The notes beneath the pieces are model-generated. The model was not told where the DNA came from. It ran no database searches and worked only from the letters and a program-made list of their open reading frames with translations. Below, in pieces: positions 9,037 to 31,732 of a stretch of 36,336 bases of DNA. The stretch is from Bacteroidota bacterium (GTDB lineage: Bacteria; Bacteroidota; Ignavibacteria; UBA10030; UBA8401), in assembly GCA_030679145.1 (NCBI GenBank), contig JAUXTU010000068.1, positions 1 to 36,336 on the forward strand. Direction: 5' to 3'. The number at the start of each line of letters is the position of its first letter. The stretch's first letter is position 1. The translations under genes and the position numbers were made by a program.

Positions 9037-9086
9037 TTTTATTCAATCAAACAATCTTTGTACCTTTGTGTCTCTGCGAGATATTT

Positions 9087-13616: not shown

Positions 13617-16600
13617 TCAATTATTGGTGATGATTCTTCGAACGGTTGAGGAGATTACATCAAAACGATACGGCTTCGTCAGCACATCTTGGATACCTTT
13701 GCGTAAAAGATTGGAACGTGTTGATGTATCCAGAAAACCGGAGGAAACGACAACTTTCACATTGGGATTCATTGCACGAAGTTTTGCAAATAGGTCTTCA
13801 CCACCCATACGAGGCATTCCAAGATCGGTAATCACAAGTGCAATCGTATCTTTCTTTTCAACATAGATCTTCAAGGCCTCAACTCCGTCCGAGGCAGAAA
13901 GAACGTTATATCCTTCATCTATTAAACTTTCAGACAATATATCACGCAGCATTTCTTCATCATCAACGATCAATATTGTTTCGCAATTCATTATGGACAC
14001 TTCTTGTTCTGCATGTTGTTCATCTGAAAGTTCAACCGAAATCATCGGAAAATACATGGTAAATGTCGTGCCTACCCCTTTCTTGCTCTCCACGTCAATG
14101 AACCCTTGATGCAGTTTAACGATACCATGAACGATAGCAAGACCAAGCCCTGTTCCTTTGCCGCGCGCTTTTGTTGAAAAGAACGGTTCAAATATCCGTT
14201 GTTGTATCTCGTCATCCATTCCGGAACCGGTATCGTTGATCGAGATAGCAACATAATCGTGATCAACTGCTTCAGAAAATCGTTCTTTCACCCGTTCGCC
14301 TCGGATCAATTTTGTTCCAACAGTCAGTACGCCCCCTTCCGGCATTGCATCTTTTGCGTTGAGCGAAAGATTCAGAATCGCCTGATGCAAATGCCCCATA
14401 TCTCCCATGATCACAGCAGAAGTACTTTCGATGTTGTAGTGTACGGAAATTGACTTCGGCAGAAAATGTTTCAGAAATTCCGTTACCTGTTCAGCAACCA
14501 TGTGAACGGACATCGGTTGCAATTCCGCCTGATCAGGGCGAGAGAAGAGCAGCAATTGTTTTGAGATCGAAGAACCACGGTCTGATGCTTCAATAATTCT
14601 GTCAATATAATTTTGGATCGCAGGTATTTCCTTCGTCTGGCGTTTCATCAGTTCGGCAGTCCCAAGAATCATCGCCAAAAGATTATTAAAATCGTGTGCA
14701 ATTCCTCCCGCCAGCGTACCGATACTTTCCATCTTCTGCGCCTGTATCAACTGTTGTTCAAGCTGTTTCTTATCGGTAATATCACGCATCGAACCATTGA
14801 ACAATATCGGATGCCCTTTTTCATCTCGCACCACAACAGCGGTCAGTAACACATGAACTTTTTCTCCCCCTTTTACCTTGAAAGTAATTTCGTAGTCTTT
14901 GACAAAATCTTTCGTCGCAAATTCTTTAATAAATTTTTCTCTCTCTGCATCATTGAGATAGAACTCGGAAGCATTACGATTCAGTAATTCATTTTTATTT
15001 TCGAATCCAAGAATATCCACGGCGGCGGAATTCATATCAAGGATTATTCCGTCAATCGTAGTAATATAAATTCCATCTTTTGAGTCCTCAAAAAGGCGAC
15101 GATATTTTTCTTCACTCTGACGGAGATTTTTTTCGGCAAATTTTCGTTCTGAAATATCACGGAAAATTCCCTGTGCAATAATCCGTTTATCGTCTAATCG
15201 AATAACACTTGCTTTGATCTCTACAGGGATCTTTTTTCCGTTCGAATCGATCACTTCAAATTCCATCGGATGTTCACCAAGCAGGAGAATCTGTTCGCGA
15301 AAAAGTGATTCCGCTTCCTGCGCGCGATCGGGAGGATGAATGAACGACTGGTGTTTGCCGATGATCTCTGTGCGTGAGCGTTTCAATAATTTTTCCGCCT
15401 CCGCATTCACTTCAATAATGTTCCCCGTTTTTGTATCGGATAGAAAAACGGCATCCTTTGCATTCTCGAAAAGAGAACGAAAGCGAAGTTCGGATTCGAG
15501 CAACGCTATCTCATGTTGTTTCCGCACCGTGATATCACGGGCAATAATCTGTGCAGCAGTCTGTCCTTCAAACATGAATGGTATTGAACCGATCTCCACC
15601 TCCACAACGGCACCGTCCAAACGCATCCATGTTTGTTCCATATTCGGCACCGCCTGATTTCCATAAACACTTGCAATCCGCTTTGCAACGCTTTCACGAA
15701 AATCAGGATGTACAAAATCTATTACTTTTTTTCCGATCAGATCTTCGGCAGAATGCGCTCCCATCAACGTGATCGCCGCTTGATTTACAAACTGAATGAT
15801 TCCATTGAAGTGAACCGCAATTGCATCGGTGGAATGTTCAACAAGATCGCGATACCGTTCTTCACTGTCACGGAGCAGTTTTTCGGCACGTACTTGCTCT
15901 TCAATATGTCTGGTCATCTCAACATTTTGTTCTCGTATCTCTTTAAATAGTTGCGAATTAGCTATTGCGACAGAGATATGGTTTGCAACGATCTGTAAAT
16001 GTTCAAGATCGGTTCTGGAAAATTCTCTCGGGTCATCTTTGGTGAACAGCCCAATAATACCAACCACTGCCTGTCCAATAAGAAGCGGTGCTCCGGCATA
16101 CGAAACGAAGCCGAATTTTGTGATCTCTTCCTCGGTAGAGCTTTTTGAAAAATACGCTTCATCATTTGCGTCAATATTCTTGATCGCAAGCGCGTGTCTG
16201 TTCATAATGATCTGATACGCAATGCCGCAATTTGCCGGGATCGATCTATCGAGTTGAGCTTCCTCCACGCCAATACTTGCCAATAAATTCAACTGGCCAT
16301 CATCGACAACACGCACAATAACGGAATCCACGGTGAATGCATGCTTCACCTGTTCGATCATTTTTTTAATTTGTTTCTGTATTGGCAGAGCGCCGATCAC
16401 TTCGCCGGTAATGCGGGACAATAGATTGAGGCGTTTGTTGATATGATTAAGCTTTTCTTCCGATTCTTTTTGATATGTTATATCCCGAAAATTAACAACA
16501 ATTCCATTGACTGCAGGATCATTGATAAGATTTGTTCCGGTTGCCTCCAGCCATCTCCAGTCTCCGTTTTTATGACGAAATCGCAGCTGTGAAACAATGC

Positions 16601-17606
16601 TTGTTCCATTACGCGAAAGTATTTTTGAAAGATTTTTTTTGCTCTGCTCTATGTCTTCCTCATGGATAAAAGCAAATGCGTTCTTCCCAACAAGATCCTC
16701 GAACGAATATCCAAGAATAGCGTGTGAAGCACCGCTGGTATATTGAATGATTCCGTCACTGTCCATAATGGAAAATGACTCCGCGCTTTTTTCGATCAGC
16801 GCACGGAATCGTTTTTCGTTCTTGTTCAGTTCATCCTGAATCTTTCGACGTTCTGTCTCATCACGAAACGTGAACACAATTCCGGTGATCTCACCCGAAT
16901 CGTTAAAAATTGGTGATGCGGAATCCTCAATACTTGTGCGCGTTCCATTCTTTGCAAGAAGAATAGTATTATGAGCTACAGCATTTACTGAACGAGAAGA
17001 CAAAATTTTTGCAACGGGATTGAGAATGCGCTCACCGGTCTTTTCATTCTCAATAATAAATACATCGTCAAGCTTTTTTCCTATTGCATCTTCTTGTTTC
17101 CACCCCGTTAACTGCTCGGCAATAATATTAATGAATTTTATAATCCCTTTTTTATCCGTTGCAATCACCGCATCGGCAATGCTTCGCAATGTTGTTGAAA
17201 GCCAGCCTCGTTGCTCTTTTACCTCTGATTCCACTTTGTGTTTGTATAACGCCATCTCAACGGCTGTAAGAACATCTCGCTCTTCAAATGGTTTAAGAAT
17301 GTAGCCGTACGCTTCAATACGTTTTGCGCGCTGTACGGTTTTTTCATCGGAATATGCAGTGAGGAAAATAATTGGAATATCGAACTGTTTAAGAATTTTC
17401 TCGGCAGCATCAATACCGTCCATATCTTCTTCTATGACGATATCCATTAGAATAATATCGGGCGGAGATGCCATAACGGCTTCTATTGCCTGTGTTCCGG
17501 ATGACACTTCATCAATTGTTGTATATCCGGCAGAAGAGAGGATTGAGCGAAGATTTTGCGCAACCGTCTTTTCATCTTCAACAATAAGTGCCTTTTTTCG
17601 TTTCAT
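13617..17606 (-). CDS. Hybrid sensor histidine kinase, REC-PAS-PAS-GAF-PAS-PAS-PAS-HisKA-HATPase-REC
   Basis: This 1329-residue cytosolic protein has no membrane helix. It has an N-terminal receiver (1-122, phospho-acceptor Asp55, Lys105), PAS (about 136-255), PAS (262-380), GAF (395-555), and three more PAS domains (582-695, 705-820, 830-945). The HisKA domain has His971 in GGIAHDFNN. The ATPase domain has an N box around Asn1083, DTGSGM 1125-1130 and GKGTGLGL 1149-1156. A C-terminal receiver (about 1208-1325) has Asp1261. The HDFNNLL box marks the large family of cytosolic hybrid kinases. Having receivers at both ends suggests a phosphorelay that is itself gated by an upstream kinase. No dedicated output regulator is adjacent. 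The ATG at 17606 lacks a good Shine-Dalgarno sequence. Confidence 0.93.
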
Positions 17607-17766: not shown

Positions 17767-18795
17767 TTATTGAAAGAACAAACGTATCTCTTTACTACAC
17801 CGTTCAAATTCACATCCAGGTGCTAAATGACCACAATCGTTTGTCAGTTGAATAATCTTTGCATTGACCACTTTGCCGAATTGAATTGCAGCTTGAGGAT
17901 TGACAGTAAGATCTTTGGTTGCAACAATTAACAGAAGTTTAGTTTTGATCCGGTAAACTGATGATGAAACACGATTGCTATCATACTGAAAGATATTATG
18001 ATTGATCATCGCTTTTAACTGATACGAAAGATCTGTGAACCGTTCCGTATGAATAGTATCACGTTCGAACGAGCGGATGTATTCCTGATATTTTTCCATT
18101 GTCACTTCTTTGTTGATGAATTCCGGTGTGCGAAGAACTAATGCAAATGCCATGGAATATAACTCGGATTGATCGATCTCGCTCATAGAGTATTTTTTTC
18201 CGTTTGCAATGATCTTTTCGAGAACGGTGAAAAACAATCTGTTATAACTGCTCAGCCGCGGTGTTCCAACGTACGCAACCGCATGTTTCATATAGTTCGG
18301 ATATGCCACGATCCATTCAAATATCTGCATTCCGCCCATCGAACCGCCGATCATTCCATGCAATTGTGTGATTCCAAATTCTTTTTTCAGCATCAGATAC
18401 TGCGATGTTACCATATCTCGGATCGTAAACAGCGGAAATTTTTCTCCCGGCTGGCGGATACTGTTCGATGGTGATGAAGAAACTCCGTCTCCAAGCGCAT
18501 CAACCGCAATCACAAAATATTTTGTCGAATCAACAAATGAATTGTTCCCGATCAGTCCTTGGAGATCGGCGCTGTTTCCCATATACCATGTACAGAAAAG
18601 AATTGCATTCGATTTTTCTTTGTTCAGCACGCCGAACGTTCTGTATCCCACCGAACAATCATACAATGTATCACCGCTTTGCAGCGCAAGATTGCCAATA
18701 GAAGAATATTGCTGGTGCGAATTTGAATATGAAAGAGAAACAGAGATGCAGAGTAAAACGAGAATAACGATGGACCGAACCTGTTTCATTTTCAT
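17767..18795 (-). CDS. Exported alpha/beta hydrolase of the homoserine O-acetyltransferase (MetX)-like fold
   Basis: This 342-residue protein has a signal peptide (residues 1-24). The body aligns in style with MetX: an oxyanion region FCTWYMGNS, ALGDGVSSSPSNS, nucleophile elbow IGGSMGGMQ (Ser152), KDLTVNP (Asp295) and CGHLAPG (His323). True homoserine acetyltransferase is cytosolic, so with a signal peptide this is more likely an esterase or acyltransferase acting in the periplasm. It starts 12 bases after the stop of the SGNH-esterase gene, last of a three-gene set with a NagX-like protein. The start has AAAGG just upstream; an in-frame ATG two codons later is equally possible. Confidence 0.85.
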   Translation of the reverse strand: MKMKQVRSIVILVLLCISVSLSYSNSHQQYSSIGNLALQSGDTLYDCSVGYRTFGVLNKEKSNAILFCTWYMGNSADLQGLIGNNSFVDSTKYFVIAVDALGDGVSSSPSNSIRQPGEKFPLFTIRDMVTSQYLMLKKEFGITQLHGMIGGSMGGMQIFEWIVAYPNYMKHAVAYVGTPRLSSYNRLFFTVLEKIIANGKKYSMSEIDQSELYSMAFALVLRTPEFINKEVTMEKYQEYIRSFERDTIHTERFTDLSYQLKAMINHNIFQYDSNRVSSSVYRIKTKLLLIVATKDLTVNPQAAIQFGKVVNAKIIQLTNDCGHLAPGCEFERCSKEIRLFFQ

Positions 18796-18807
18796 TTTTC
18801 CTTTGAG

Positions 18808-20610
18808 TTATTTTAGCAGTGCCATCATTTTTGTTTCGAAATAATTTCCGGCCCGAAGCGTGTAAAAATATAGTCCGGATGCTAATCGCGACCCGTTGAA
18901 TCGTACGGAATATCTTCCTTTCTCTTGCTCCTTGTTTACTATGACATCAATTTCTTTTCCAAGAATATTATACACTTTCAATGAAACGGTACTAGTTACC
19001 GGTATTTGGTAACTGATATCAGTTGTAGGATTGAATGGATTGGGGAAATTTTGTTCCAACGTATATTCTTTTACAACCGATTGCTCTGATGCCTTATCAA
19101 CAGATGTAAGATTGTTTGTTCCAAACACTTCTACTTCGTTCAAAATATAGGAATCGTTAAGTGTTGAATTATTTAAAAATAAAATCTTCAATTGACGGCC
19201 AATTCCGGAAATCTCCGAAATATCATCAACACCCCCATCGCCGATTGAATTATTATAGATTGGTTCAGTTTCTCCGGACTCTTTTGTGAGAAGTAAATAA
19301 TAATTTGTTGCGCATACTTTCCCCCAGCGCATTATTGCTTTATTTATGGAGATTGTTTTCCCGAAGTCTATCGATATCCATTGTGTTTTTCCGGAAACGC
19401 TTTTCCAATACGTAGTAGAGTCGCCGTCATTTACAGAAGATACAGAAAATCCCCAATCCGTTGTTGATGCCGTTGCTCTTCGCATCAATGCGCGATTATA
19501 TTTTTCAGTTTCAATCCCTTCTATATGGATTATTTGTGTATCGGTAACTTCTCCGACTGCTCGCAATGTAAACATTGTATCGCTGCGAACAGGAACAATC
19601 AATGCATCATTTTCTTTCACTGATATTCCGTTAAGGGATACTGAAGAACCTGTACCTGTCTGCCAAAACAAAGTGATCGAATCAACGCTTCCTATTTCGT
19701 ATGACAAAATACTTGGACGAAACAATTTTATTTTCCCGGGCGGATAATAGAAAACTGTTCGGGAAATAGAATCCGAAATCATTCCTTGTGTTGTCAATGT
19801 GTATGCTGCAGTACTTGTTGGAACGATGGCGAGAGAATCGACTGCATTGACAGGATTTCCATTGAGAAATGCTTTTGAATTTTCAGATGTATTCCAATAT
19901 AATGTTGTAGTTTCATTTTTATGAAGTGTGTCTTTCTGCGCATAGAAATACCGGATCACACCGCTTTGTCCATACATCACAGTATCATAGACAAGTTGCG
20001 CCATTTTTTCATAGCCGATGGCGTTCGGGTGCACACCATCCGGAAACAGTGCCCCTTGATCTTTCATTGCAGAATAAAAATCAATCAGAAATGTTTTTGC
20101 AGATTTCCTTACAGAATCAATAAGAGGAATAATCTCGTTCTTCACGATCGGTTCATTGATTCCCCAATTGGTTTGGAATACAGGGACAGGAAAACAGACA
20201 TATATTTGCGGACGCCGATGAAGCATTCTGAATGCAGCAACTAATTCCATATAATCACCAAAGAATTGGTCTTTATAGATCCAGTTCTGAGGCTTACTAT
20301 CATTTGTTCCAAGTTTGATGATGACAATGTGCGGATCGAAATTACGCGCATCTATGAATTCCGGTTCCTTCCAATATGGAAAATCGCCGTTCTTTAAAAG
20401 TGTTCGTGCCGAGATTCCATAATTTCTCACGTCGTATTGCAAACCGAGCTTTTTTTGAAGCTGCTGCGGATAGGAAAGATCTCCAAGACCTCCCCAGGTG
20501 ATGCTGTTCCCAATACACGCTATTCGGATCTTTGCTGGCTGCGCGTCGGCAAATATAACTACGATTAAAAAAATGAACCCTATCTTTTGCAGTACCGATC
20601 TTTTACTCAT
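18808..20610 (-). CDS. SGNH/GDSL-type esterase with discoidin-like domain and T9SS sorting domain
   Basis: This 600-residue protein has a signal peptide (MSKRSVLQKIGFIFLIVVIFADAQ). The SGNH hydrolase domain covers about 28-220: GNSIT with Ser36, a Gly in block II, GTND with Asn103, and DGVHP with Asp191/His194. Two short beta domains follow (about 220-370), then an F5/8 type C (discoidin-like) carbohydrate-binding domain (about 374-500) and a T9SS type A sorting domain (519-600, NFPNPFNPTT to KMMALLK). This architecture fits an acetyl-esterase acting on polysaccharide at the cell surface, such as a sialate or glycan O-acetylesterase. The start at 20610 was chosen because it gives a clean signal peptide and lies 11 bases after the upstream stop; 20652 would overlap that gene. 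Confidence 0.88.
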   Translation of the reverse strand: MSKRSVLQKIGFIFLIVVIFADAQPAKIRIACIGNSITWGGLGDLSYPQQLQKKLGLQYDVRNYGISARTLLKNGDFPYWKEPEFIDARNFDPHIVIIKLGTNDSKPQNWIYKDQFFGDYMELVAAFRMLHRRPQIYVCFPVPVFQTNWGINEPIVKNEIIPLIDSVRKSAKTFLIDFYSAMKDQGALFPDGVHPNAIGYEKMAQLVYDTVMYGQSGVIRYFYAQKDTLHKNETTTLYWNTSENSKAFLNGNPVNAVDSLAIVPTSTAAYTLTTQGMISDSISRTVFYYPPGKIKLFRPSILSYEIGSVDSITLFWQTGTGSSVSLNGISVKENDALIVPVRSDTMFTLRAVGEVTDTQIIHIEGIETEKYNRALMRRATASTTDWGFSVSSVNDGDSTTYWKSVSGKTQWISIDFGKTISINKAIMRWGKVCATNYYLLLTKESGETEPIYNNSIGDGGVDDISEISGIGRQLKILFLNNSTLNDSYILNEVEVFGTNNLTSVDKASEQSVVKEYTLEQNFPNPFNPTTDISYQIPVTSTVSLKVYNILGKEIDVIVNKEQEKGRYSVRFNGSRLASGLYFYTLRAGNYFETKMMALLK

Positions 20611-20621
20611 TTTTGATTTGC

Positions 20622-21773
20622 CTACACTTTTAAGAACCAGCGTTGTTTCCACAACAAAAAGAGCATACCATAAATAACTGTGACTGTAAGCAGTCCATAG
20701 ATCAGTGAAGCATTCAACGGGGAGAAATATTGATTAAAGAATGCCTGCATCCAAAAATCTTTTAGTGAGATTGTGTCCAATTGCCCGCTGCTTGTAACAA
20801 TTGATGTTGTCAATCCATATACAGCACTTTCTTGGATGGTAGAAATGCAATATGCGGCAATCGCATTCGATCCGTACACGATAAATGGAAGTGCCCATCG
20901 CTGGATTCCTTTTACATCAATAAAAAAATAAAAGATGGAAAAGATCACCAATGACCAGCCAGCCATAAAGATTGCGTATGATGATGTCCAGAGATTTTTA
21001 TTGATGGGAAGCCACATATCTAAGATCACACCCAACAGTAACAATATTGAACCTGTAACAAACATCCAATTCACTTTTTCTATTTTGGAATGTATTCCTG
21101 TGCGGATATATTCACCTGCAAGCACTCCTCCCAACACAGTTGCAATTGCCGGCACCGTACTAACAATTCCTTCCGGGTCCCATGTGAATGTATTTTTCCA
21201 CATATGTCCTTGAAGAAACAAAGAATCAATATACGCTGCAAAATTATTTCCCTCTTGCATGCTGCCAAGTTCAACACCGGGAACAGGAATCCATTTCATC
21301 ATGATCCAATACGTTGAAAGCAATACTCCAATCGTTATTCCTATCATTTTTTTTGACAGAAAAAGATATGCTATTGAAGCAGCGCAATATCCAACAGCAA
21401 TGCGCTGTAAGACACCGGGGATGCGTATCGTTGAGAAACTAAATGGAATATTCCACAATAAGCCAAACGGAAAACCATTGAGAAACAGGCCGATCAAAAA
21501 AATAAGGATTGTTCTCCGAAAAATTTGAAGAACAATTCTTGATCGTTTGTCGCCGCGATCCACTCTGCTGTTCAATGAGAATGTAATTGACATTCCTACT
21601 GACCATAAAAAAAACGGGAAAATAAAATCTGTAAATGTCCAGCCGTTCCATGCCGCATGTTCCAATTGTGGATAGATATGCTCCCACGAGCCGGGATTAT
21701 TCACCAACACCATCACAGCCATGGTAAATCCGCGAAAAGCATCGAGCGATAATAGGCGTTCAGTTTTTTTCAT
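20622..21773 (-). CDS. DUF5009/COG4299 multi-pass membrane protein (NagX-like, HGSNAT-like)
   Basis: This 383-residue protein has about ten hydrophobic segments. It opens RLLSLDAFRGFTMAVMVLVN and continues with EHAAWNGWTFTDFIFPFFLW, the family signature of DUF5009 proteins, which are related to heparan-alpha-glucosaminide N-acetyltransferase. The His in this segment corresponds in position to the conserved loop histidine. In other bacteria nagX genes of this family occur in N-acetylglucosamine utilisation loci, where a transport or acetylation role is proposed. Here the neighbours are GH20, a ROK kinase and an esterase, supporting the same association. The start at 21773 avoids a hydrophilic extension that would begin in the terminator at 21801-21837. 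Confidence 0.85.
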   Translation of the reverse strand: MKKTERLLSLDAFRGFTMAVMVLVNNPGSWEHIYPQLEHAAWNGWTFTDFIFPFFLWSVGMSITFSLNSRVDRGDKRSRIVLQIFRRTILIFLIGLFLNGFPFGLLWNIPFSFSTIRIPGVLQRIAVGYCAASIAYLFLSKKMIGITIGVLLSTYWIMMKWIPVPGVELGSMQEGNNFAAYIDSLFLQGHMWKNTFTWDPEGIVSTVPAIATVLGGVLAGEYIRTGIHSKIEKVNWMFVTGSILLLLGVILDMWLPINKNLWTSSYAIFMAGWSLVIFSIFYFFIDVKGIQRWALPFIVYGSNAIAAYCISTIQESAVYGLTTSIVTSSGQLDTISLKDFWMQAFFNQYFSPLNASLIYGLLTVTVIYGMLFLLWKQRWFLKV

Positions 21774-21800
21774 TACGTCTGATTGATAATAGTACGTAAA

Positions 21801-21837
21801 AATATCCGTGCTCTCTTGTTCAGAGAGCACGGATATT
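21801..21837 (-). terminator. Strong intrinsic terminator, 16-bp perfect stem
   Basis: AATATCCGTGCTCTCT (21801-21816), a 5-base loop, and its exact reverse complement (21822-21837) are followed on the minus strand by a T run (ATATTTTTAC). It lies 11 bases past the stop of the CBM9 gene and separates the GH20-ROK-propeller-CBM9 block from the NagX-esterase-hydrolase block, so the second block needs its own promoter or read-through. Confidence 0.85.
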
Positions 21838-21847
21838 ATACTACAAC

Positions 21848-24397
21848 TTATTTCAACAACATCATTTTTTTAACGCTATGGAACGAACCTGCTTCTACAG
21901 TATAGAAATATACACCACTGGCAAGTTTTCTGCCGAGTGACGCATCAACTCGTGCAGTATATGTCCCTGCGGTCTGATATTCGTTGACGATCGTTGCAAC
22001 TTCTCTTCCAAGAATGTCGAACATTTTCATTCTCACCATTCCGGATTGAGCAATTGAATATCGAATTTCCGTTGATGGATTGAAGGGATTCGGGAAATTC
22101 TGCCATAACTCGTACGATTGAGCAACGGAATTATCTTTTCGTACACTTGTCGCGTATCCACCCAACCAGGTAGAGGTCCAATATCCTGTAACATACGCCC
22201 ACGAATTATCTTCGTTGCTTGGCGAATAGGTCATAATACCTTCACGGTATCCCAGTGAATCGGCATCGTTGATTGCAAAATCGATCGGCATTTGCATTCC
22301 AACTTTTGGAACAAAGAGATCATCATCTCCTTCGCTTGCTAATAACGCCAGCGGAATTTTTGCTTCAACGGTATATCCTGGTGTCAGCCCTTTCTTTTTC
22401 CAAGAATAATTTACACCGGGACGCATGATCGTCTTATCAAACATCAACCAGTGACTCAAGTGAATTTCGTTTTGGCCAAAGCGTAAATGATAATTAGGTT
22501 CAGCTCCACGACCATAGAACCAACGGAAAATACCTTTTGAATCATCATATAAACCGATGAACAATTCCGGTGAATCATTCTTCCAGCCCGGTGAGAATGT
22601 GGAATCGAAAAGCACGATATCGTCAATAACATCGAATGCTACATACATGTTTGCATTATCGAATGCTACATATGCTTTCACATTTAAATCGAGGCTATCG
22701 GTAACTTTTGTATTGGAAACTACAGATCCCGATTTATCTTTTGGATTCATTCGGAACGGGGTAATGGTTGCCCATTCAGAAAGATTTCCATCTGCGACAA
22801 ATGATGGCGGCGCTGTTGGTGAAATAACGGTAATACCTTTTGCGGTATTGGTTACTTTTGCGCTTACACCGGCTGCGCTTTCATTTCCCATGGAATCAAC
22901 ACACGTTACAGCGTAATAGAAATCAACTGTTTGATCATTTTTTGGAACTCGAATATCTTGATCGAACAAGCCCACTCCTTTTGCAATTGCAAGCTTTGCA
23001 ACGGTCACTCCCGAAGCTTTTACGGATGTAATTAGCTGAGTACTTTGATAGATGTTATATAATTCTTGAGTTTCTGTTGCAATATCTGTCCACGAAACGG
23101 TATTGATATATTTTCCGTTTGCTAAACCGACTACTCCTGATGGGGCAGCGGGTGCGGTTATATCAAATGTTGGTTTACCGGTCCAAATATTATCGAAATA
23201 GACAACCTTATCTTTGATAACTTGTCCGTCTCCTTCAATACGGAATTGTGTCACTTTTGATGAATCCATCCATTTGCTCTTATCTCTCGCTGGATCCCAT
23301 GATCCCCATTGTTCAAAATCCTTCAATGGAATCTTTACAAGTTTCCAATTTCCATTGTAACCGCCAACAGAAGTTTCGGTCATTGTATACACCGCTTGAT
23401 AACTTCTATCCGGTAAACCTTCATCCGCATCAGCAAGAGCAACATACAACGTTCCAAATCCTGCGGGCGCTTTTATTGCAAATTGAACGGTATCGTTTTT
23501 CCAATTTGCTCCAAGGTTTCTTGGGTTTGCAAAATCCCACCAAACACCATCCCAGCCGTCATCACCGATCCATTTTACTGCACCAGTCCCTTTGCTGTCA
23601 AAATCTTCAACCGGATCAACGGTTACTGAACCGCTCCATCCAACAGCCATACTCACATCATTTTGTGTTCTCCGTCCGTTAAATAGAACTAACGGAGTTA
23701 CTTTTTTTCCAATTGCCATCATATTGTCAATATAAAAAACACAAGAGTCATACGTGTTCACAGAATCAGAATCGAATTCTAAATAGAAACCGCGGATCGC
23801 TTCAAGATCGAAACGGGTATTGTTCTTTTTTCCGCCAACACTTTGTCTGTTCCAGCCTTCATTCCAGTCTGAAACTTTTGGATCGCTCGTATTGCCGACA
23901 ACTTTCAATGGAACGCTTATTCGTTTCCATGTTTTCGACGTATCATTAAAAATATAATTGTACTGATGCCGCCAGAACTCCGCATAACCATTGCTTCCGG
24001 TCGGATTAGAGTTATGAGAAACATCGCTCGGATTTTCCACGAAGATCATAGCCAAGTACGTATCTTTCTGTTTTGCCGGTCTCTCAACATACATCCAGAA
24101 CACGAGCGAATCATAATCTGCAATGTTGATCACTTCATTGGCGCCGAGATTGTTTGCAAAACTTACGCCGGCATATTGCCAGTCAGTATACGTTTTGTTC
24201 ATCCATTCAATTTTTAGCGAAGCTGCACCTTCGTATTTGAATGTTGAATCGTATGAAAATTCTTTTAGCTCGCTCCCTTCGCTCCACCATAGATCCTGCA
24301 AGTTTGTCCACGTACCGTCGAACCGTTCTACTCTTCCCTGCGAGAACAGCGATATGCTGAGCGCTACCGAGAGAAGAAAAATGTATCGTGTTTTCAT
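21848..24397 (-). CDS. Secreted CBM9-like carbohydrate-binding protein with T9SS sorting domain
   Basis: This 849-residue protein has a signal peptide (MKTRYIFLLSVALSISLFSQ) and two galactose-binding-like beta-sandwiches (about 22-235 and 236-410), each ending in a YIDNxxx/YFDNIW strand. A Fn3-like domain (about 418-520) follows, then a CBM9-like domain (about 535-745, starting FVADGNLSEW and including DxxYVAFDVxDD, NDSPELFIGLYD and YTVEAKIPL), and a T9SS type A sorting domain (765-849). No hydrolase motif was seen, so it is likely a surface glycan-binding or accessory protein. AGG lies upstream of the ATG at 24397. The strong terminator at 21801 follows directly. Confidence 0.85.
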   Translation of the reverse strand: MKTRYIFLLSVALSISLFSQGRVERFDGTWTNLQDLWWSEGSELKEFSYDSTFKYEGAASLKIEWMNKTYTDWQYAGVSFANNLGANEVINIADYDSLVFWMYVERPAKQKDTYLAMIFVENPSDVSHNSNPTGSNGYAEFWRHQYNYIFNDTSKTWKRISVPLKVVGNTSDPKVSDWNEGWNRQSVGGKKNNTRFDLEAIRGFYLEFDSDSVNTYDSCVFYIDNMMAIGKKVTPLVLFNGRRTQNDVSMAVGWSGSVTVDPVEDFDSKGTGAVKWIGDDGWDGVWWDFANPRNLGANWKNDTVQFAIKAPAGFGTLYVALADADEGLPDRSYQAVYTMTETSVGGYNGNWKLVKIPLKDFEQWGSWDPARDKSKWMDSSKVTQFRIEGDGQVIKDKVVYFDNIWTGKPTFDITAPAAPSGVVGLANGKYINTVSWTDIATETQELYNIYQSTQLITSVKASGVTVAKLAIAKGVGLFDQDIRVPKNDQTVDFYYAVTCVDSMGNESAAGVSAKVTNTAKGITVISPTAPPSFVADGNLSEWATITPFRMNPKDKSGSVVSNTKVTDSLDLNVKAYVAFDNANMYVAFDVIDDIVLFDSTFSPGWKNDSPELFIGLYDDSKGIFRWFYGRGAEPNYHLRFGQNEIHLSHWLMFDKTIMRPGVNYSWKKKGLTPGYTVEAKIPLALLASEGDDDLFVPKVGMQMPIDFAINDADSLGYREGIMTYSPSNEDNSWAYVTGYWTSTWLGGYATSVRKDNSVAQSYELWQNFPNPFNPSTEIRYSIAQSGMVRMKMFDILGREVATIVNEYQTAGTYTARVDASLGRKLASGVYFYTVEAGSFHSVKKMMLLK

Positions 24398-24449
24398 AAA
24401 CACCTCATATTGGTTAAAGAAATGATGAATTAATGTGTATTGCTTGGGT

Positions 24450-25727
24450 TTATTGTATGGTGACCATTGTTTTTGTTTGTATAAACGATCCTGCCGTTAT
24501 TCGGTAAAAGTATATGCCACTTTGAAGATTATATGATTCTGTATTCAACACGTATCGATGTTCGCCGCTATATTGAAATCCGTTCACCAGCGTTGCAATT
24601 TTTTTTCCCAGCACATCAAATAGATCAACAGTCACATCCGATTCCTGCATCAGTTCATATCGAATTGTTGTTTCGGGGTTGAACGGATTTGGGTAGTTCT
24701 GATGAAGAAGTGCCACAGGATTCGTTGGCTGATCTGGTGTGAGAACAGAAAGTGGCAAAGAATTTTTTGTATAACAGACACCAAGCTCATGCCGAACAGT
24801 ATTTATACCGAATAAATTCAATGAACGGGTTTCACCTGTTTTGAGATTCCCAATCCAAAGATCATATCCACCTTTGCCTCCGGATCTATTGCTGGAGAAA
24901 AGAACAATTGCACTATCAACAGGATATGGGTCTGAATCATCCGAACCACTCAAATTAAATACTACCGGTTGAATTTCACCCGTATTGATATTTGCCAGAT
25001 AAATATCATCACCTTTACTGGATGATGATGCCCATCGAGCATATAATAATGTTGAATCATCACGCACGATGGAATAATAATTTTGCACTCCCGGTGTTTG
25101 TACAATTGGACTGATTTGTTTTGTGGCTATATCAATTTTATAGATAAAGGAATTTGGTTCATCACCTTCAACATAAATAATGCTTTTTCCATCTGCTGTT
25201 GGATATTCCATAGATTTTTCGCTCAACATTCCTTCGTTGGTAAGTTTTGTCAACATACCGGTGGTTGTATTTACAATTCCAATATCTCCGTTATGTTTAA
25301 ATGTTACCTGAAGACCATCGGGAAAAAATTTTGGATCCTGATCCATTAAACTGTTTCCTTGCAGCAACTCTTTCGGTTGTTCGCTGGAACCAACCGTCCA
25401 AAGATAAATATTCCAACTGCTTCGCGTCCGCGCACCTTTGGGCACAGCCATAAAAACTAATTTCGTGCCATCGGGAGAAAAATGAGCATTTGTTGTATGC
25501 TCAATGTTGTCCCAATTCATACTGATATTGTCCAACGACCGAGCGGTAAAATCATAGATGAATAATTGTCCGTCCCACGCTGTCCAATCTGTATATCGGT
25601 GAAACACAATCTTCCCACTCGAAATCGGAAACAGCGCTTGTGCACTGCTGGGTTGTGTATCTGCGAGCAGTACACAGATCAATTTCAGAAGGAATTGGGA
25701 ATATATTTTGTTGCGTTTATTCGGCAT
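24450..25727 (-). CDS. TolB/PD40-like beta-propeller protein with T9SS sorting domain
   Basis: This 425-residue protein has a signal peptide-like N-terminus (MPNKRNKIYSQFLLKLICVLLADTQPSSAQA). About six PD40/TolB-like repeats follow (about 35-320), with recurring FSPDGTKLVF, FPDGLQVTF, ADGKSIIYV, DDIYLANI and VLFSSNRSGGKGGYDLW. A T9SS type A sorting domain (342-425, HQNYPNPFNPETTIRYEL) ends it. Its start overlaps the 3' end of the ROK kinase gene by 11 bases, so the two are translationally coupled. The propeller probably mediates binding rather than catalysis. Confidence 0.85.
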   Translation of the reverse strand: MPNKRNKIYSQFLLKLICVLLADTQPSSAQALFPISSGKIVFHRYTDWTAWDGQLFIYDFTARSLDNISMNWDNIEHTTNAHFSPDGTKLVFMAVPKGARTRSSWNIYLWTVGSSEQPKELLQGNSLMDQDPKFFPDGLQVTFKHNGDIGIVNTTTGMLTKLTNEGMLSEKSMEYPTADGKSIIYVEGDEPNSFIYKIDIATKQISPIVQTPGVQNYYSIVRDDSTLLYARWASSSSKGDDIYLANINTGEIQPVVFNLSGSDDSDPYPVDSAIVLFSSNRSGGKGGYDLWIGNLKTGETRSLNLFGINTVRHELGVCYTKNSLPLSVLTPDQPTNPVALLHQNYPNPFNPETTIRYELMQESDVTVDLFDVLGKKIATLVNGFQYSGEHRYVLNTESYNLQSGIYFYRITAGSFIQTKTMVTIQ

Positions 25728-26712
25728 ACACAACACGCAACGTATGTTTTGGTAATTGCAATTCATGCCAGATAAGCGCACACGCACCAAGAATTGCAAC
25801 ATTTCCTGTTGTCAATCCCGATGCAAGGATCTGGACTTTGCCTTTGAAAAGATTCAACAGATTTTTTTCCATATGGAATTTTGTCGGACGAATGATCAGA
25901 TCACCGGCAAGCGCAAGTCCTTCGGATAGAATGATCGCTTCCGGACTGAGAATTGCAACAGCATTTGCAAGTGATTCGCCGAGCATTTGTCCTGTAGTTT
26001 CAAATGCAGTATTTGCAACTACATCGCCATTAATGGCTGCTTTGTAGATCAATTTTGATGTCATTTCATGAATGGGAATTTCGCGCATAACACTTTCGTC
26101 ATTGTGCATTGCCAGCAATTCCGAAACTGTTCTGATAATACCGCTTGTTGAAACATACGTTTCCAAACATCCTTGCCGTCCGCATCCGCAGTGTCTGCCA
26201 TTGCGAACGACTGTAGTGTGTCCTATCTCTCCGGCAAAACCATCGGTACCATATACAATATTGCCGTCAACCACGATCCCGCTTCCGAGTCCTGTGCCGA
26301 GTGTGATCTGTATAAAGTTCTTGAAATTCTTTGCTACTCCATACCGCGCTTCACCAAGTGCTGCCGCGTTCGCATCGTTAGTGATAACAACGGGGATATC
26401 CCAATATTTTTGAACAAGCTCTACAACGTTCACATGTTTCCAATTTAAATTGGACGAATTTTCGATCGTTCCGGTAGCGTAGTTTGCGGTAGGTGCAGCA
26501 ACGCCAATACCTAACAACTTATATTTATCAGAGACGGAACTATAGATATCGTTGAATTTTTTATTCAACCGGAGAAACAACGATTCCGGAGGTTCATGGG
26601 CTTTCATCGGAATTTTTTCTTCAAGGACATAATTCCCGAACTTATCTACCAAACCAAATGAAACTCTGGTACCTTCAATCTCTACTCCCAAAACAACATC
26701 AATCGTCGCCAT
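25717..26712 (-). CDS. ROK family sugar kinase (probable N-acetylhexosamine or glucose kinase)
   Basis: This 331-residue cytosolic protein has an N-terminal ATP loop VVLGVEIEGTRVSFGLVD (about 5-22) and the catalytic Asp113 in TNDANAAALGE. ATP-binding TLGTGLGSGI (about 137-146) and GFAGEIGH are followed by the ROK zinc site CGCGRQGCLE, with His165, Cys175, Cys177 and Cys182. There is no N-terminal helix-turn-helix, so it should be a kinase rather than a NagC-type repressor. AAGGA is 6 bases before the ATG at 26712, and the upstream GH20 gene ends 10 bases before it. Coupling to a hexosaminidase makes N-acetylglucosamine a likely substrate; glucose or ManNAc cannot be excluded. Confidence 0.9.
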   Translation of the reverse strand: MATIDVVLGVEIEGTRVSFGLVDKFGNYVLEEKIPMKAHEPPESLFLRLNKKFNDIYSSVSDKYKLLGIGVAAPTANYATGTIENSSNLNWKHVNVVELVQKYWDIPVVITNDANAAALGEARYGVAKNFKNFIQITLGTGLGSGIVVDGNIVYGTDGFAGEIGHTTVVRNGRHCGCGRQGCLETYVSTSGIIRTVSELLAMHNDESVMREIPIHEMTSKLIYKAAINGDVVANTAFETTGQMLGESLANAVAILSPEAIILSEGLALAGDLIIRPTKFHMEKNLLNLFKGKVQILASGLTTGNVAILGACALIWHELQLPKHTLRVVYAE

Positions 26713-26722
26713 AGTTTTTCCT

Positions 26723-28756
26723 TTATTGTTGTGCCGCAAAGTTCAGTAATCGTTTCATCGATTCAATTATCACTAATTCACATTGCCCGCGCTGCAGCGA
26801 GGCTTTGGTTAATTGTTCAGACATTCGTTCGAATTCTTTGAAACTCATCGTCTCTTTGGAAGAAATGATCTTTAGACATTCCTCTCCAAGCGCACCAACA
26901 AATGCAAGATCTGCTGAAAGAGTTTCAACTTCTCGAAGAATTGGAGCGGTTTGCTGAACGGTAGTAAACTGCACATGATTCATTTTCCACAGCGCAAAAA
27001 ACATTGATAGAGAATCATGTGCTGAAGAATCATTGTTGTTGATATGACGATTCACAAGCGATGCAACAATTCTTTTAAGCGGTGCATCAGAAACGGCAAC
27101 ATCCATAAATCGGGAATAGGAGGAATATGATGTGAACTCTTTTCCTTTATCAAATCGATTATATTCTTCCAGCGGTTCAGCAACATCAAGCAAATGCTGC
27201 ACTATTCTATAATCGCCATTGCTGACTAACCTGCGGAGCATCATCATTTGATTTTTTTTATGAAGAAGACCGAGCTCTTCCAACTGAAAACTTATTACGC
27301 CCATACGGCGGTACATATCATCAACATTTCGGATTTCACGCGGCGACCAGAATCGTTCCGCAATCGCGGCAACGCGTGGCCAAATACGTGAATCGACATT
27401 CTCCGGCGTAACGAATTCTGACCACATGGTTGTTTCACCACCGAGAATTAATTCTTGTTGTGGTACAGAAAGAACTTCGTCAGCCGGAAAAGGATCGTTG
27501 GTATAATGGTTCTCCGCAGAATACATCAGGTCGATGTAATATCCGCGTGAGACCAACACTTGATATCCTTTTTTCAAAGCATTAATAAGTGATTTATCCT
27601 CACGCCATGTTTGAAGCACTGTGCTTTTCAACGTTCCTTCCTGCAGAATTTCCTCCCACCCAATGATCTTCTTATTATATTTTGTCAACAGTTCTGAAAC
27701 ACGTTTAATAAAATAATTTTGAAGCGCGTGATTACTGGTAATCTTCTTCTCTTTTTTGAACCTCGAAATTTCGACACTTGAATCCCAGTCTTTTCCTGTA
27801 TTCTCATCGCCGCCAATATGGAAATACTCGTCATTGAACAGCGCAGTCATCTCTTTAAAGACATTATCTAAAAATCCATAGGTCGATTCTTTTGTTGGAT
27901 CCATTACCGGATTGAATACGCCCCACGACCGTTCAATTGTATATGGTCCGGGGGCACTTGCCAATTCCGGATAGCCGACAAACCAACTTGTTGAATGTGC
28001 GGGCATATCAAATTCCGGAACAACTCTAATTCCTCTGTCATTTGCATACATTATGATCTCACGAATCTGCTCGTGTGTATAATAGAATCCATCCGATCCC
28101 ATTTCATGAAGTTTCGGATAGGTCTTGCATTCAACACGAAATCCCTGATTTTCACTCAGATGAAGATGCAACACATTTAATTTTACCGCCGCCATTCCGT
28201 CAATATTTCTGAAAATTACATCCAACGGCATATAATGGCGTGCAACATCAATCATTAAACCGCGCCATGCAAATCGCGGTTTATCATTTACAGAACATCC
28301 GGTGAAAAAATATCCAAAAGAATCCGCACCTAATAACTGCATTAGTGTTTCCAGTCCATGCATTGCGCCAAGATCGGTTGCAGCGTAAAGCAGAACAGAA
28401 TCTTTTGTTACGGATAATGAATATGTTTCGTCTTCACCTACTTTTAATATTCCGGTGCGGGAAATGGAAACAATAAATTGAGCAGTTGATACGGTGCGAT
28501 TCGATTTGTAATCTGTTGATAAGAATAATCCTGTGCGTCCTGCGATTCTATCAAATATTCTTACCACAGCTTTGTGCAGACGCGGAGATGATTGACCGGA
28601 AATATTGACCGTGAAAGATTCGTTGACACGAAATTGTTCGGAGGTAAACTGTATCGAAGAAGGATACGGCATCAACACGGCAGTATTTGATGAACCTAAT
28701 GCTGTCACAACAAAAAGAAGTGACGCTAAAAACATTTTGATCTGTATTCTATTCAT
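26723..28756 (-). CDS. Secreted beta-N-acetylhexosaminidase, GH20
   Basis: This 677-residue protein has a signal peptide (MNRIQIKMFLASLLFVVTALGSS). A GH20b-like N-terminal domain (about 25-160) precedes the catalytic TIM barrel (about 160-490). RGLMIDVARHYMPLD, NVLHLHLSENQGFR, VVPEFDMPAHS, and the catalytic pair in FHIGGDE (Asp317-Glu318) are followed by IIGWEEIL, the acetamido-pocket TW and GGETTMWSE. A helical C-terminal extension (about 490-677) follows. The enzyme removes terminal GlcNAc or GalNAc by substrate-assisted catalysis. There is no sorting domain, so it is probably periplasmic. GGAG lies 6 bases before the ATG at 28756. It heads a tight run with the ROK kinase. Confidence 0.93.
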   Translation of the reverse strand: MNRIQIKMFLASLLFVVTALGSSNTAVLMPYPSSIQFTSEQFRVNESFTVNISGQSSPRLHKAVVRIFDRIAGRTGLFLSTDYKSNRTVSTAQFIVSISRTGILKVGEDETYSLSVTKDSVLLYAATDLGAMHGLETLMQLLGADSFGYFFTGCSVNDKPRFAWRGLMIDVARHYMPLDVIFRNIDGMAAVKLNVLHLHLSENQGFRVECKTYPKLHEMGSDGFYYTHEQIREIIMYANDRGIRVVPEFDMPAHSTSWFVGYPELASAPGPYTIERSWGVFNPVMDPTKESTYGFLDNVFKEMTALFNDEYFHIGGDENTGKDWDSSVEISRFKKEKKITSNHALQNYFIKRVSELLTKYNKKIIGWEEILQEGTLKSTVLQTWREDKSLINALKKGYQVLVSRGYYIDLMYSAENHYTNDPFPADEVLSVPQQELILGGETTMWSEFVTPENVDSRIWPRVAAIAERFWSPREIRNVDDMYRRMGVISFQLEELGLLHKKNQMMMLRRLVSNGDYRIVQHLLDVAEPLEEYNRFDKGKEFTSYSSYSRFMDVAVSDAPLKRIVASLVNRHINNNDSSAHDSLSMFFALWKMNHVQFTTVQQTAPILREVETLSADLAFVGALGEECLKIISSKETMSFKEFERMSEQLTKASLQRGQCELVIIESMKRLLNFAAQQ

Positions 28757-28896
28757 TTCACGCTCCATGATATGTCATACGGTGAAATTTTCTTAGAGAA
28801 AGTATTCTTTCAAAACAATCAATTCTGTCATATTTCTATCAACGAAACAATAATGCTGTAAACGAGATATGCACACAGATAAACGAGCAGAACAAT

Positions 28897-29961
28897 TTAT
28901 TTGATCAGTAAACTTTTTATTGTTGCTGTGCCATGCTCAGTATGTAATCGAATAAAATATATCCCGCTCGGAACGTTGTACGCATTCCACGAAACAGAAA
29001 AACTTCCTGCGGATTGCTTCCGCTCATCAACTAATGTTGCAATGTTCTTGCCGAGAATATCGTGAACAACAATTTTCACCGAACTCTGCTTTGGAATTGT
29101 GTATTGAATGACCGACGAAGCATTAAATGGATTTGGATAACTTGAAATAGAGAATCGCTCCGGCGCAAGAGTGGATTGAGTTTCATTGTTTACAGAAGTA
29201 GGATTCAGGATTGACAGTAGAACTTGCGGATAATTTGTTATAACGGCATCAACCTTTTTATCAATAAAACTTCTCATCGCAAGAGAATCATCAATCGTCC
29301 ATGGCCAGAACTCTATTCCTTTCAGGTGTGCGTAATCAATTGCTGCTTGCGTATTCCCGTTTCCGGATCCGATCACCGAACCGCCAATACTTTTCACTGT
29401 ATCAATTAATGCTGTAGTAACAGGATCGACATAGAGCAGTGTTGATGCTTGCGGATTTATTTTTTTCGCTTCGATCAATGCATCAATATGGAAACAACAG
29501 ATATACACTTGACCAATCATTCCCATCTCTTCGATCAATTTGACGGTATTTGAAGTGATATTGGTATTCTTTATTTCGATTGCTGCTTTGGCATTCTTTT
29601 CTTTCATTAACGCCAACACTTGGCGAAGCGTTGGTATCCTTTCATCTTTAAATTGCGGGGAAAACCATGTGCCTGCATCCCATCGGGCAATTTGAAAATA
29701 GTACATCGCAGTTACCGTTCCTGTACCATTTGTTGTTCTCTCAATCGTATTGTCATGAATAACAATCAGCGAATCATCAAACGTATTCCATACATCCAAC
29801 TCTAAATAATCAACGCCGAGATCAATCGCTTTCTTAAATGCGGCGAGAGTATTTTCCGGTGCAAGCGATGATGCGCCGCGGTGAGCGATAACTTTTACCT
29901 GTTGTGCTTTCATTGGAACGACCAATACAACCCACAACAGTGCGATCAATAAAAGTTTCAT
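28897..29961 (-). CDS. Glycerophosphodiester phosphodiesterase with T9SS sorting domain
   Basis: This 354-residue protein has a signal peptide (MKLLLIALLWVVLVVPMKAQ) and a GDPD TIM-barrel domain (about 22-255). His27 lies in AHRG, Glu54 and Asp56 in LELDV, His69 in VIHDN, with a late EFWPWTIDD and DAVITNYPQ. A T9SS type A sorting domain (272-354, YPNPFNASSVIQYTIP to KSLLIK) follows. The enzyme class splits glycerophosphodiesters into glycerol-3-phosphate and an alcohol. The fusion with a sorting domain places it at the cell surface rather than in the periplasm. It is a single gene, divergent from the kinase gene at 30163. Confidence 0.92.
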   Translation of the reverse strand: MKLLLIALLWVVLVVPMKAQQVKVIAHRGASSLAPENTLAAFKKAIDLGVDYLELDVWNTFDDSLIVIHDNTIERTTNGTGTVTAMYYFQIARWDAGTWFSPQFKDERIPTLRQVLALMKEKNAKAAIEIKNTNITSNTVKLIEEMGMIGQVYICCFHIDALIEAKKINPQASTLLYVDPVTTALIDTVKSIGGSVIGSGNGNTQAAIDYAHLKGIEFWPWTIDDSLAMRSFIDKKVDAVITNYPQVLLSILNPTSVNNETQSTLAPERFSISSYPNPFNASSVIQYTIPKQSSVKIVVHDILGKNIATLVDERKQSAGSFSVSWNAYNVPSGIYFIRLHTEHGTATIKSLLIK

Positions 29962-30162: not shown

Positions 30163-30951
30163 ATGCAAACATCAGCGGATCTTCAAAAAAAAATAGATGA
30201 ACTGGAGCGATTGATTATTGAGCTGCAAGACGCTCTTCAACGCGAACAGAAAGACAATTCTCTTAAATCACAATTTATCGGGACTGCCGCGCATGAATTT
30301 AGAACTCCATTGACCACAATTTTAAATTCAGCCGATTTTTTAGGAATGGTCGGTCGGTCCTGCGACGAAGAAAAATATCGGGAACACATTACAAAGATAC
30401 AGCGGGCAGTAAATTATCTTGCTGAATTCTCGGAAGATGTTTTAACGATCTCAAAATTTGAGAGCAGCAACTCATTTGTAAAACCGGTCCGTTTTTTGAT
30501 CGATGAGTTTTGCCAAAATCTCATCGAAGAAATTTCGGATACACAGGATAAATCCCACAGGATCGCTTTCGTTTTTTCAGGTGCGACCACAGCACTGTAT
30601 CATGACAAACATTTGTTGCAGCATATCATTCTTAATCTTTTAGAAAATTCAATAAAATATTCTTTACAGAAAACGCCGATCGAATTATATGCCACCGTTA
30701 CATCAACTCATCTCGAACTAAGCGTGAAGGATCAAGGACGAGGTATTCTTGAAGAGGATAAGCAACGATTGTTCGAGCCATTCGAACGCGGAAGCAATAA
30801 CTACGATACAATGGGGACTGGCTTAGGACTTTCTATCGTTAAAAAATCCGTTGATATACTCAATGGCACAATAAATGTTAAAAGTGAACTGAATGTCGGC
30901 ACGATGGTTATTGTAACAATTCCATTATTACAGAATACGGCACGTCAATAA
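30163..30951 (+). CDS. Short cytosolic sensor histidine kinase
   Basis: This 262-residue protein has no transmembrane helix and no recognisable sensor domain. A coiled coil (about 5-35) leads into HisKA, with phospho-acceptor His44 in AAHEFRTPL. The HATPase domain has an N box (LNLLENSIKYS), DQGRGI, LFEPFERG and GTGLGL. Signal input would have to come through the coiled coil or a partner protein. The response-regulator gene begins 7 bases after its stop, so they form a two-component pair. It is one of the few plus-strand genes in the window. No good Shine-Dalgarno sequence precedes the ATG. Confidence 0.92.
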   Translation: MQTSADLQKKIDELERLIIELQDALQREQKDNSLKSQFIGTAAHEFRTPLTTILNSADFLGMVGRSCDEEKYREHITKIQRAVNYLAEFSEDVLTISKFESSNSFVKPVRFLIDEFCQNLIEEISDTQDKSHRIAFVFSGATTALYHDKHLLQHIILNLLENSIKYSLQKTPIELYATVTSTHLELSVKDQGRGILEEDKQRLFEPFERGSNNYDTMGTGLGLSIVKKSVDILNGTINVKSELNVGTMVIVTIPLLQNTARQ

Positions 30952-30958
30952 TATAGCC

Positions 30959-31732
30959 ATGGCAAAAATCTTAATTATCGATGACGATCAACCTGTGAGA
31001 TCAGGAATACGCGATCTGCTGGAAGTAAAAAATTATACTGTGTTCACTGTAGATAATGGACTTGATGGGATTCGAATTGCCAAAGAAATAGATCCCGATC
31101 TTATCCTTTGTGATATTATTATGCCGAAAATGGATGGGTATAAAGTTCTTGCTGAAATTAAAAAAGAGCCGGCACTGATGCTTGTTCCTTTTATTTATCT
31201 TACGTCAAAAACGGATATGGCAGATATGCGGTACGGAATGGGGCTTGGGGCAGATGATTATATCATAAAACCATTTGCGGCAAAAGATCTTTACCGGGCG
31301 ATCGAGACACGGTTGAACAAACAACAGCTGCTGATGCAGCAAATGATTAACAAAAAAAAAGAACCCGTTTCAAAACTGTCTGATGAAAAAAATCAACAGA
31401 CCGATCATTTATTTCTTCCGGTCGGTAACGAGATCCAATACATTAAGATACAAAGCATCGAATGTATCACCGCATTCAGTGAATACACAAACGTATATGT
31501 TGACCCGGGTAAAAAAATTGTTGTGCGTAAATTCTTAAAAGAATGGGAAAAATTCCTGCCTCACTCAACATTCCTACGTATTCATCGTTCCACAATTATC
31601 AATCTGGACTTTGTGGTAAAAATCGAGAAATTCTTTAAACGTTCATACATTGTTCATTTAAAAAACATCAAGCAGCCATTCACCATTAGTCAACGGTTTG
31701 CTGCAAAACTGAAATCACATAATTTGTTTTGA
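30959..31732 (+). CDS. Response regulator with LytTR DNA-binding domain
   Basis: This 257-residue protein has a receiver domain (1-122) with IIDDDQ, the phospho-acceptor Asp52 (LCDIIMPKMDG), the switch Thr in YLTSK and KPF. A charged linker (about 123-150) precedes a LytTR domain (about 155-257, with IECITAFSEYTNVYV, FLRIHRSTIINLDFV and IVHLKN). LytTR proteins bind DNA as dimers and often control secretion, exopolysaccharide or signalling genes. It is co-transcribed with the kinase and ends at a strong bidirectional terminator. Targets are not evident, except possibly its own promoter region. Confidence 0.93.
   Translation: MAKILIIDDDQPVRSGIRDLLEVKNYTVFTVDNGLDGIRIAKEIDPDLILCDIIMPKMDGYKVLAEIKKEPALMLVPFIYLTSKTDMADMRYGMGLGADDYIIKPFAAKDLYRAIETRLNKQQLLMQQMINKKKEPVSKLSDEKNQQTDHLFLPVGNEIQYIKIQSIECITAFSEYTNVYVDPGKKIVVRKFLKEWEKFLPHSTFLRIHRSTIINLDFVVKIEKFFKRSYIVHLKNIKQPFTISQRFAAKLKSHNLF

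Follow-up and report, generated by a model that had tools for sequence, protein, structure and literature searches.

A putative amino-sugar glycan utilization locus in an Ignavibacteria-type genome and a candidate SusC/SusD stand-in at the matching locus of a relative

SusC and SusD are the sugar-import pair of gut bacteria. In ChiUL, the chitin locus of Flavobacterium johnsoniae, SusC/SusD-like pairs and GH18 chitinases are encoded within the locus, and surface capture is followed by the action of a periplasmic chitobiase (PMC5127042, PMC7426924), namely FjGH20, which is active on chitooligosaccharides and to whose description the structure 6YHH belongs (PMC7426924). The nag gene sets of Shewanella and other bacteria contain NagX, NagP and NagK, of which NagX has a role in glucosamine use in five bacteria according to fitness data, is frequent in chitin operons, has been proposed to function like HGSNAT and is distantly related to the putative MurNAc transporter TfMurT (PMC9007349); active-site roles in HGSNAT have been published for N258 and H269. 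The xylan locus Rmar_1067-1081 of Rhodothermus marinus encodes, in this order, a TonB receptor, a cell-attached hypothetical protein, a hypothetical protein, a second cell-attached hypothetical protein and a GH10 enzyme (PMC6987092). In the Ignavibacteriales, susCD genes are reported to be scarce in gene clusters despite many CAZyme clusters, and none of the clusters of two metagenome-assembled genomes (about 55 in each) was matched to a known substrate (PMC10576277). A SusCDE operon has been described in Melioribacter roseus.

The locus described here lies on a contig (C74) that corresponds in full to the 36,336-nucleotide stretch of DNA analysed, hereafter the window. It resembles ChiUL in having a GH20 enzyme of the same architecture (6yhh) and, as predicted, surface capture ahead of a periplasmic chitobiase, but it has neither the SusC/SusD-like pairs nor the GH18 chitinases (PMC5127042, PMC7426924). 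As in the nag sets, a NagX-family gene stands by GlcNAc functions, with a NagP-like MFS permease encoded in the closest relative and NagA elsewhere; curated models, however, do not call the kinase NagK or the permease NagP, and T9SS surface proteins are added (PMC9007349). With the canonical SusC/SusD PUL it shares a surface binder, a periplasmic glycosidase and a kinase in one cluster, and the receptor of the relative carries the SusC-style CarbopepD_reg_2 N-terminal domain; unlike that PUL, it has no SusD, its binders are T9SS cargo, and a PorV-like protein belongs to the module discussed below. The locus is a variant of a known locus type; the more notable point is a candidate SusC/SusD replacement that is shared across the lineage and lies outside the window.

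Open reading frames and domain searches placed seven genes head to tail on the minus strand at 17767-28768 (Table 1), in a metagenome-assembled genome of the Ignavibacteria type that comprises 3.83 Mb in 123 contigs (100% complete, 0.86% contamination). All seven families named in a first-pass annotation of the window were recovered by domain or profile matches at the same place and on the same strand. That annotation had described a head-to-tail row; the order and the strand stood, but the row is more than a single continuous unit, for a perfect 16-bp hairpin separates the CBM9 and NagX genes. Just upstream of the row, on the same strand, lies a gene for a T9SS-tailed glycerophosphodiester phosphodiesterase (GDPD), and because a GDPD homolog lies inside the corresponding locus of the closest relative, the locus probably extends to 29961. 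Matches to Por_Secre_tail/TIGR04183 exceeded the cutoff in the propeller, CBM9, SGNH and GDPD proteins, which marks these four as T9SS cargo. The discoidin part of the SGNH protein is most similar to domains of a Paenibacillus-type glucanase/chitosanase, a weak lead toward chitosan binding. Searches of the window for tRNA genes, Rfam families and composition anomalies found none.

Table 1. Features of the locus, with positions in the window
Feature	Position	Strand	Evidence and remarks
Exported alpha/beta hydrolase, MetX/PRK07581 group	17767..18795	-	N-terminal signal-like segment
SGNH/GDSL esterase, T9SS-exported	18808..20610	-	PF13472, F5/8 type C (discoidin), Por_Secre_tail; likely start ATG 20610
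NagX/HGSNAT-like transmembrane acetyltransferase	20622..21773	-	NF046061 E=3e-57; ATG 21773, past the hairpin, more likely the start than GTG 21830 inside it
Terminator-like hairpin	21801..21837	-	Perfect 16-bp inverted repeat, 5-nt loop, U run; about ten bases past the CBM9 stop
CBM9-domain protein, T9SS-exported, putative surface glycan-binding	21848..24403	-	PF06452 E=2e-13 and Por_Secre_tail
TolB/PD40-like beta-propeller, T9SS-exported	24450..25727	-	TolB-like repeats and Por_Secre_tail; likely start ATG 25727
ROK-family sugar kinase	25717..26712	-	PF00480 E=2e-58; likely start ATG 26712
GH20 beta-N-acetylhexosaminidase	26723..28768	-	PF00728 E=2e-96; signal peptide, no T9SS tail; start ATG 28756 or 28768
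GDPD, T9SS-tailed glycerophosphodiester phosphodiesterase	28897..29961	-	PF03009 E=6e-39; 45% identical to the GDPD of the closest relative's locus

The evidence for amino-sugar utilization, which the first-pass annotation had proposed and which we also favour, begins with the GH20 protein. It matches 6yhh over its full length (residues 32-675, E=2e-165, 555 bits) and retains HIGGDE, and thus combines the full-length similarity and the HxGGDE motif of FjGH20-type chitobiases; it is probably a chitobiase itself, and its signal-like N-terminus without a T9SS tail suggests a periplasmic location. Further genes that would be needed were sought elsewhere in the genome and found: nagA on contig C93, three nagB-like genes on contigs C76, C27 and C113, a homolog of the GluP/NagP-type MFS permeases at C18:79191-80573, and four GH18 matches, including one within a 786-aa protein that ends in a T9SS-like tail (C23). 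Judged from gene content, the amino-sugar catabolic route appears complete on paper and dispersed through the genome. The kinase is less telling: the nearest solved relatives of the ROK protein are glucokinases (3vgk, 2qm1), its best model is the ROK glucokinase family at a score below that model's own cutoff, the NagK models score lower still, and its closest paralog in the same genome sits in a beta-glucan-like locus. That the matches of both the ROK kinase and the MFS permease are as glucose-like as GlcNAc-like counts against a chitin reading, and the cluster in the window encodes no chitinase.

The NagX-like protein scores 194.5 bits against NF046061, for which the equivalog cutoff is 480, and is accordingly assigned to the family rather than to NagX proper. 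Compared with human HGSNAT (E=5e-30), it keeps the VN...HA-WNG region of the catalytic domain, which covers the equivalents of Asn258 and His269. This HGSNAT-like active site, the record of NagX in glucosamine use and chitin operons and the FjGH20-like character of the GH20 enzyme together suggest that glucosamine is re-acetylated ahead of GH20 cleavage. The locus would in this way tie an HGSNAT-type acetyltransferase to a GH20 enzyme, in parallel to the lysosomal order of acetylation and then hydrolysis. Elsewhere, one genus (genomes G006, G007 and G008; loci L021-L023 and L028-L030) carries its NagX-like genes in tandem duplicate. A paralog about 55% identical to the window NagX directly follows a GH13-looking gene in several Ignavibacteria-type genomes (L037, L041, L050, L124 and L129), so the NagX family need not be amino-sugar specific.

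The strongest competitor to a chitin- or chitosan-derived substrate is another glycan with GlcNAc or GalNAc, such as a glycoprotein, an exopolysaccharide or a glycosaminoglycan, from which the esterases would remove O-acetyl groups while NagX acetylates a different hexosamine. GH20 enzymes attack a variety of beta-linked HexNAc ends, the cluster encodes two exported esterase-like proteins but no chitinase, and the pairing of GH20 with NagX evidently serves other glycans too, as in a second cluster of the same genome (C75:1-20000) that encodes both together with a PfkB kinase, DUF4861, KDPG aldolase, KduI, a GH2 beta-galactosidase, GH109, an SSF symporter and a GHMP kinase, and that looks like a uronate/galactosamine glycan locus, also without SusC/SusD. 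Yet the closest solved relative of the window GH20 is a chitobiase over the full length, C-terminal region included, and genes for uronate, fucose or sialic acid were not found in the window. We therefore regard this alternative as rather unlikely, though deserving of weight, and retain chitin- or chitosan-derived oligosaccharides as our best guess.

The absence of a SusC/SusD pair, to which the first-pass annotation had drawn attention, was confirmed: the window contains no SusC/RagA-type TonB receptor and no SusD domain, and PF14322 had no match in the whole source genome. SusD was found in 190 of 395 sampled genomes of the phylum, but only two of 17 from the order of the window had it, as a single copy, and no genome of the window's own family did; this fits both the published scarcity of susCD in Ignavibacteriales clusters (PMC10576277) and the SusCDE operon of Melioribacter roseus. 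Since SusD is absent genome-wide and rare in the order, the missing pair is a trait of the lineage rather than of this locus in particular. The accompanying suggestion of an alternative layout is not supported in the form given, for the absence belongs to the genome and to most of the order, and the genes that might provide a replacement in the closest relative are missing here.

In that relative (G010, contig C272 = JAQUOA010000029.1), where a search of other genomes recovered the same cluster with extra genes, a single strand carries in succession GH20, ROK, propeller, CBM9, a TonB receptor, a 1,092-aa T9SS-like protein, a PorV-family protein, a GluP/NagP-type MFS permease, GDPD, NagX and SGNH. 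Five genes, from the receptor through the T9SS protein (~1,090 aa), the PorV-like protein and the MFS permease to GDPD, are thus additional in mid-cluster when compared with the row of seven in the window. Identities between the two loci are 58% for GH20, 71% for ROK, 52% for the propeller, 55% for CBM9, 74% for NagX and 78% for SGNH; the full gene set was found in just two genomes, in one of them on a truncated contig. The receptor has a CarbopepD_reg_2 N-terminal domain but does not qualify as SusC/RagA-type (57.7 bits, where TIGR04056 requires 368). The 1,092-aa protein had no Pfam match and no phmmer match against PDB, and single-sequence structure prediction gave no reliable fold for it (mean pLDDT 29).

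The window, compared with this locus, contains nothing recognizable of the receptor, the large T9SS protein, PorV or the MFS permease. What remains there of the four-gene module, whose members are all adjacent and co-oriented in the relative and at other loci, is the CBM9 gene and its hairpin. The CBM9 protein, for which phmmer found no match in PDB, is 55-57% identical to the CBM9 protein of the relative's cluster and 35-49% identical to the module CBM9 proteins of its own and the relative's genomes; by these alignments its gene is paralogous to the one that opens the CBM9-TonB receptor-T9SS protein-PorV module. The source genome has two close module receptors, one beside GH2 and other glycan genes (C60) and one beside GH65 and GH3 (C114), which are 73-80% identical to the receptors on contigs C126 and C233 of the relative versus 58-59% to the receptor on C272; it encodes no ortholog of the latter and no homolog closer than these two. 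At almost all other loci CBM9 is followed by the module, which favours loss at the window over gain in the relative, and secondary reduction of the window locus is, by parsimony from two genomes, the more likely history, with a residual chance that an assembly error at the CBM9-NagX junction accounts for the absence.

To what extent the module is a unit is indicated by its recurrence. At 27 loci, spread over many genomes of the order and class, CBM9 is followed directly and in the same orientation by the TonB receptor and then the large T9SS protein, with PorV next wherever contig and open frame permit. Since these loci were chosen by matches to CBM9 or to the T9SS protein, the selection itself ensures the presence of the queried gene, but of no other. 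Among loci chosen by the T9SS protein alone, receptor and PorV both lie within 1.5 kb in 28 of 30. The 83 flanking genes scanned include 14 sodium symporters, 10 GH16, nine GH3, six GH2, three GH9 and three GH5 genes. A second form of the module (receptor-T9SS protein-PorV) is flanked by ABC permeases (15 of 57 genes scanned), GH130 (10) and binding proteins (eight). Triads of this form (L230-L239) adjoin GH130 phosphorylases, ABC importers and LacI regulators, and some are followed by a PPIC-type rotamase-like protein. Variants occur in Rhodothermus-like genomes, one of which (L254 in G100) has the order receptor-T9SS protein-PorV-CBM9, and this, with the gene after it, fits the order in the R. 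marinus locus Rmar_1067-1081, although that locus has xylan enzymes and a true SusCD pair as well, and its authors gave the unit no name (PMC6987092). Nor did we find a name for the module in the other open-licence papers searched.

The module probably takes the role of SusC/SusD. As a more general proposal, which we advance tentatively and rate a little short of probable, a receptor, a dedicated T9SS partner of ~1,000 aa, a PorV-like protein of its own and CBM9, the last with its expression set apart by a conserved hairpin behind its gene, would form a PUL core that replaces SusC/SusD in the Ignavibacteria and partly in the Rhodothermia, the window copy having kept the enzymes and the binder and lost the transporter. 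The four genes are in any case a concrete candidate for glycan uptake, recurring with beta-glucan and mannan-type enzymes, and, if the proposal is true, methods that find PULs through SusC/SusD could be made to cover a large group of environmental bacteria. Two loci elsewhere in the source genome carry the module. At C60:8000-46900 it stands intact in a co-oriented run of GH16-like, GH3-like, FucP-type MFS, ROK, GH5 and GH2 genes, with a sigma-54 response regulator upstream, which is apparently a beta-glucan locus. At C114:1-8500 the gene for the large T9SS protein seems to be tandemly duplicated, with between one and a half and two copies.

The hairpin behind CBM9, which was found by reading the junction and by an inverted-repeat search and was not reported by a pattern scan, folds with -31.8 kcal/mol (z -9.2). 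Given a hairpin between CBM9 and NagX, one simple transcript for all seven genes is not assured, and the reading suggests itself that GH20-ROK-propeller-CBM9 and NagX-SGNH-hydrolase are two transcription units of unrelated roles in a loose run, the more so as the cluster is common to two genomes only. However, a perfect stem of 8 bp or more beginning no more than 30 nt from the stop follows 20 of 29 CBM9 homologs (0.05 expected from shuffles), as opposed to none of 29 TonB receptor genes, none of 27 T9SS protein genes and six of 131 other genes. A hairpin at this place is therefore the rule inside intact modules and is as compatible with differential expression as with a unit boundary, and in the relative both halves belong to one co-oriented run despite the five genes between them, so we consider two unrelated units improbable. 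The stem sequences differ between most loci, and the hairpin likely yields more CBM9 message than downstream message, through termination or as a 3' stabilizer. Peptidoglycan recycling, in which GH20 and the kinase would salvage GlcNAc from cell-wall fragments, is the least probable reading and very unlikely: a GlcNAc-releasing enzyme and a ROK kinase are present and NagX is distantly related to TfMurT (PMC9007349), but peptidoglycan, which the first-pass annotation had listed among the possible polymers, receives no specific support, MurNAc etherase, amidase, NagZ and muropeptide permease being absent from the domains of the window, and the presence of several surface-binding T9SS proteins speaks for a polymer outside the cell.

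We conclude, with fair though limited confidence, that the window holds a reduced copy of an amino-sugar glycan utilization locus, most plausibly for chitin- or chitosan-derived oligosaccharides, and that the module of the relative is a probable stand-in for SusC/SusD; the substrate, the specificities and locations of the proteins, the function of the module and its loss are all read from genes and their arrangement. According to this model, GH18 chitinases encoded elsewhere, including the one with the T9SS-like tail, would cleave the polymer outside the cell, and the T9SS-delivered CBM9, propeller and SGNH-discoidin proteins would bind and de-esterify it at the surface. Oligomers would then pass the outer membrane by a route encoded outside the locus in the window. 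In the periplasm, NagX would use cytosolic acetyl-CoA to re-acetylate glucosamine, a step needed because GH20 catalysis requires the N-acetyl group, and GH20 would free GlcNAc, which the MFS permease encoded elsewhere would import and which the ROK kinase, NagA and NagB-like enzymes would pass to glycolysis.

Several regulatory genes share the window with the locus. A sensor kinase and a LytTR response regulator form a pair on the plus strand at 30163-31732, divergent from the GDPD gene, and are possibly regulators of the locus. On the strand of the locus, some 160 bases beyond its downstream end, a 1,329-aa hybrid histidine kinase with a receiver at its start and many PAS domains is encoded at 13617-17606, and at 7525-10562 a serine/threonine kinase with PEGA domains adjoins a GAF sigma-54 activator.
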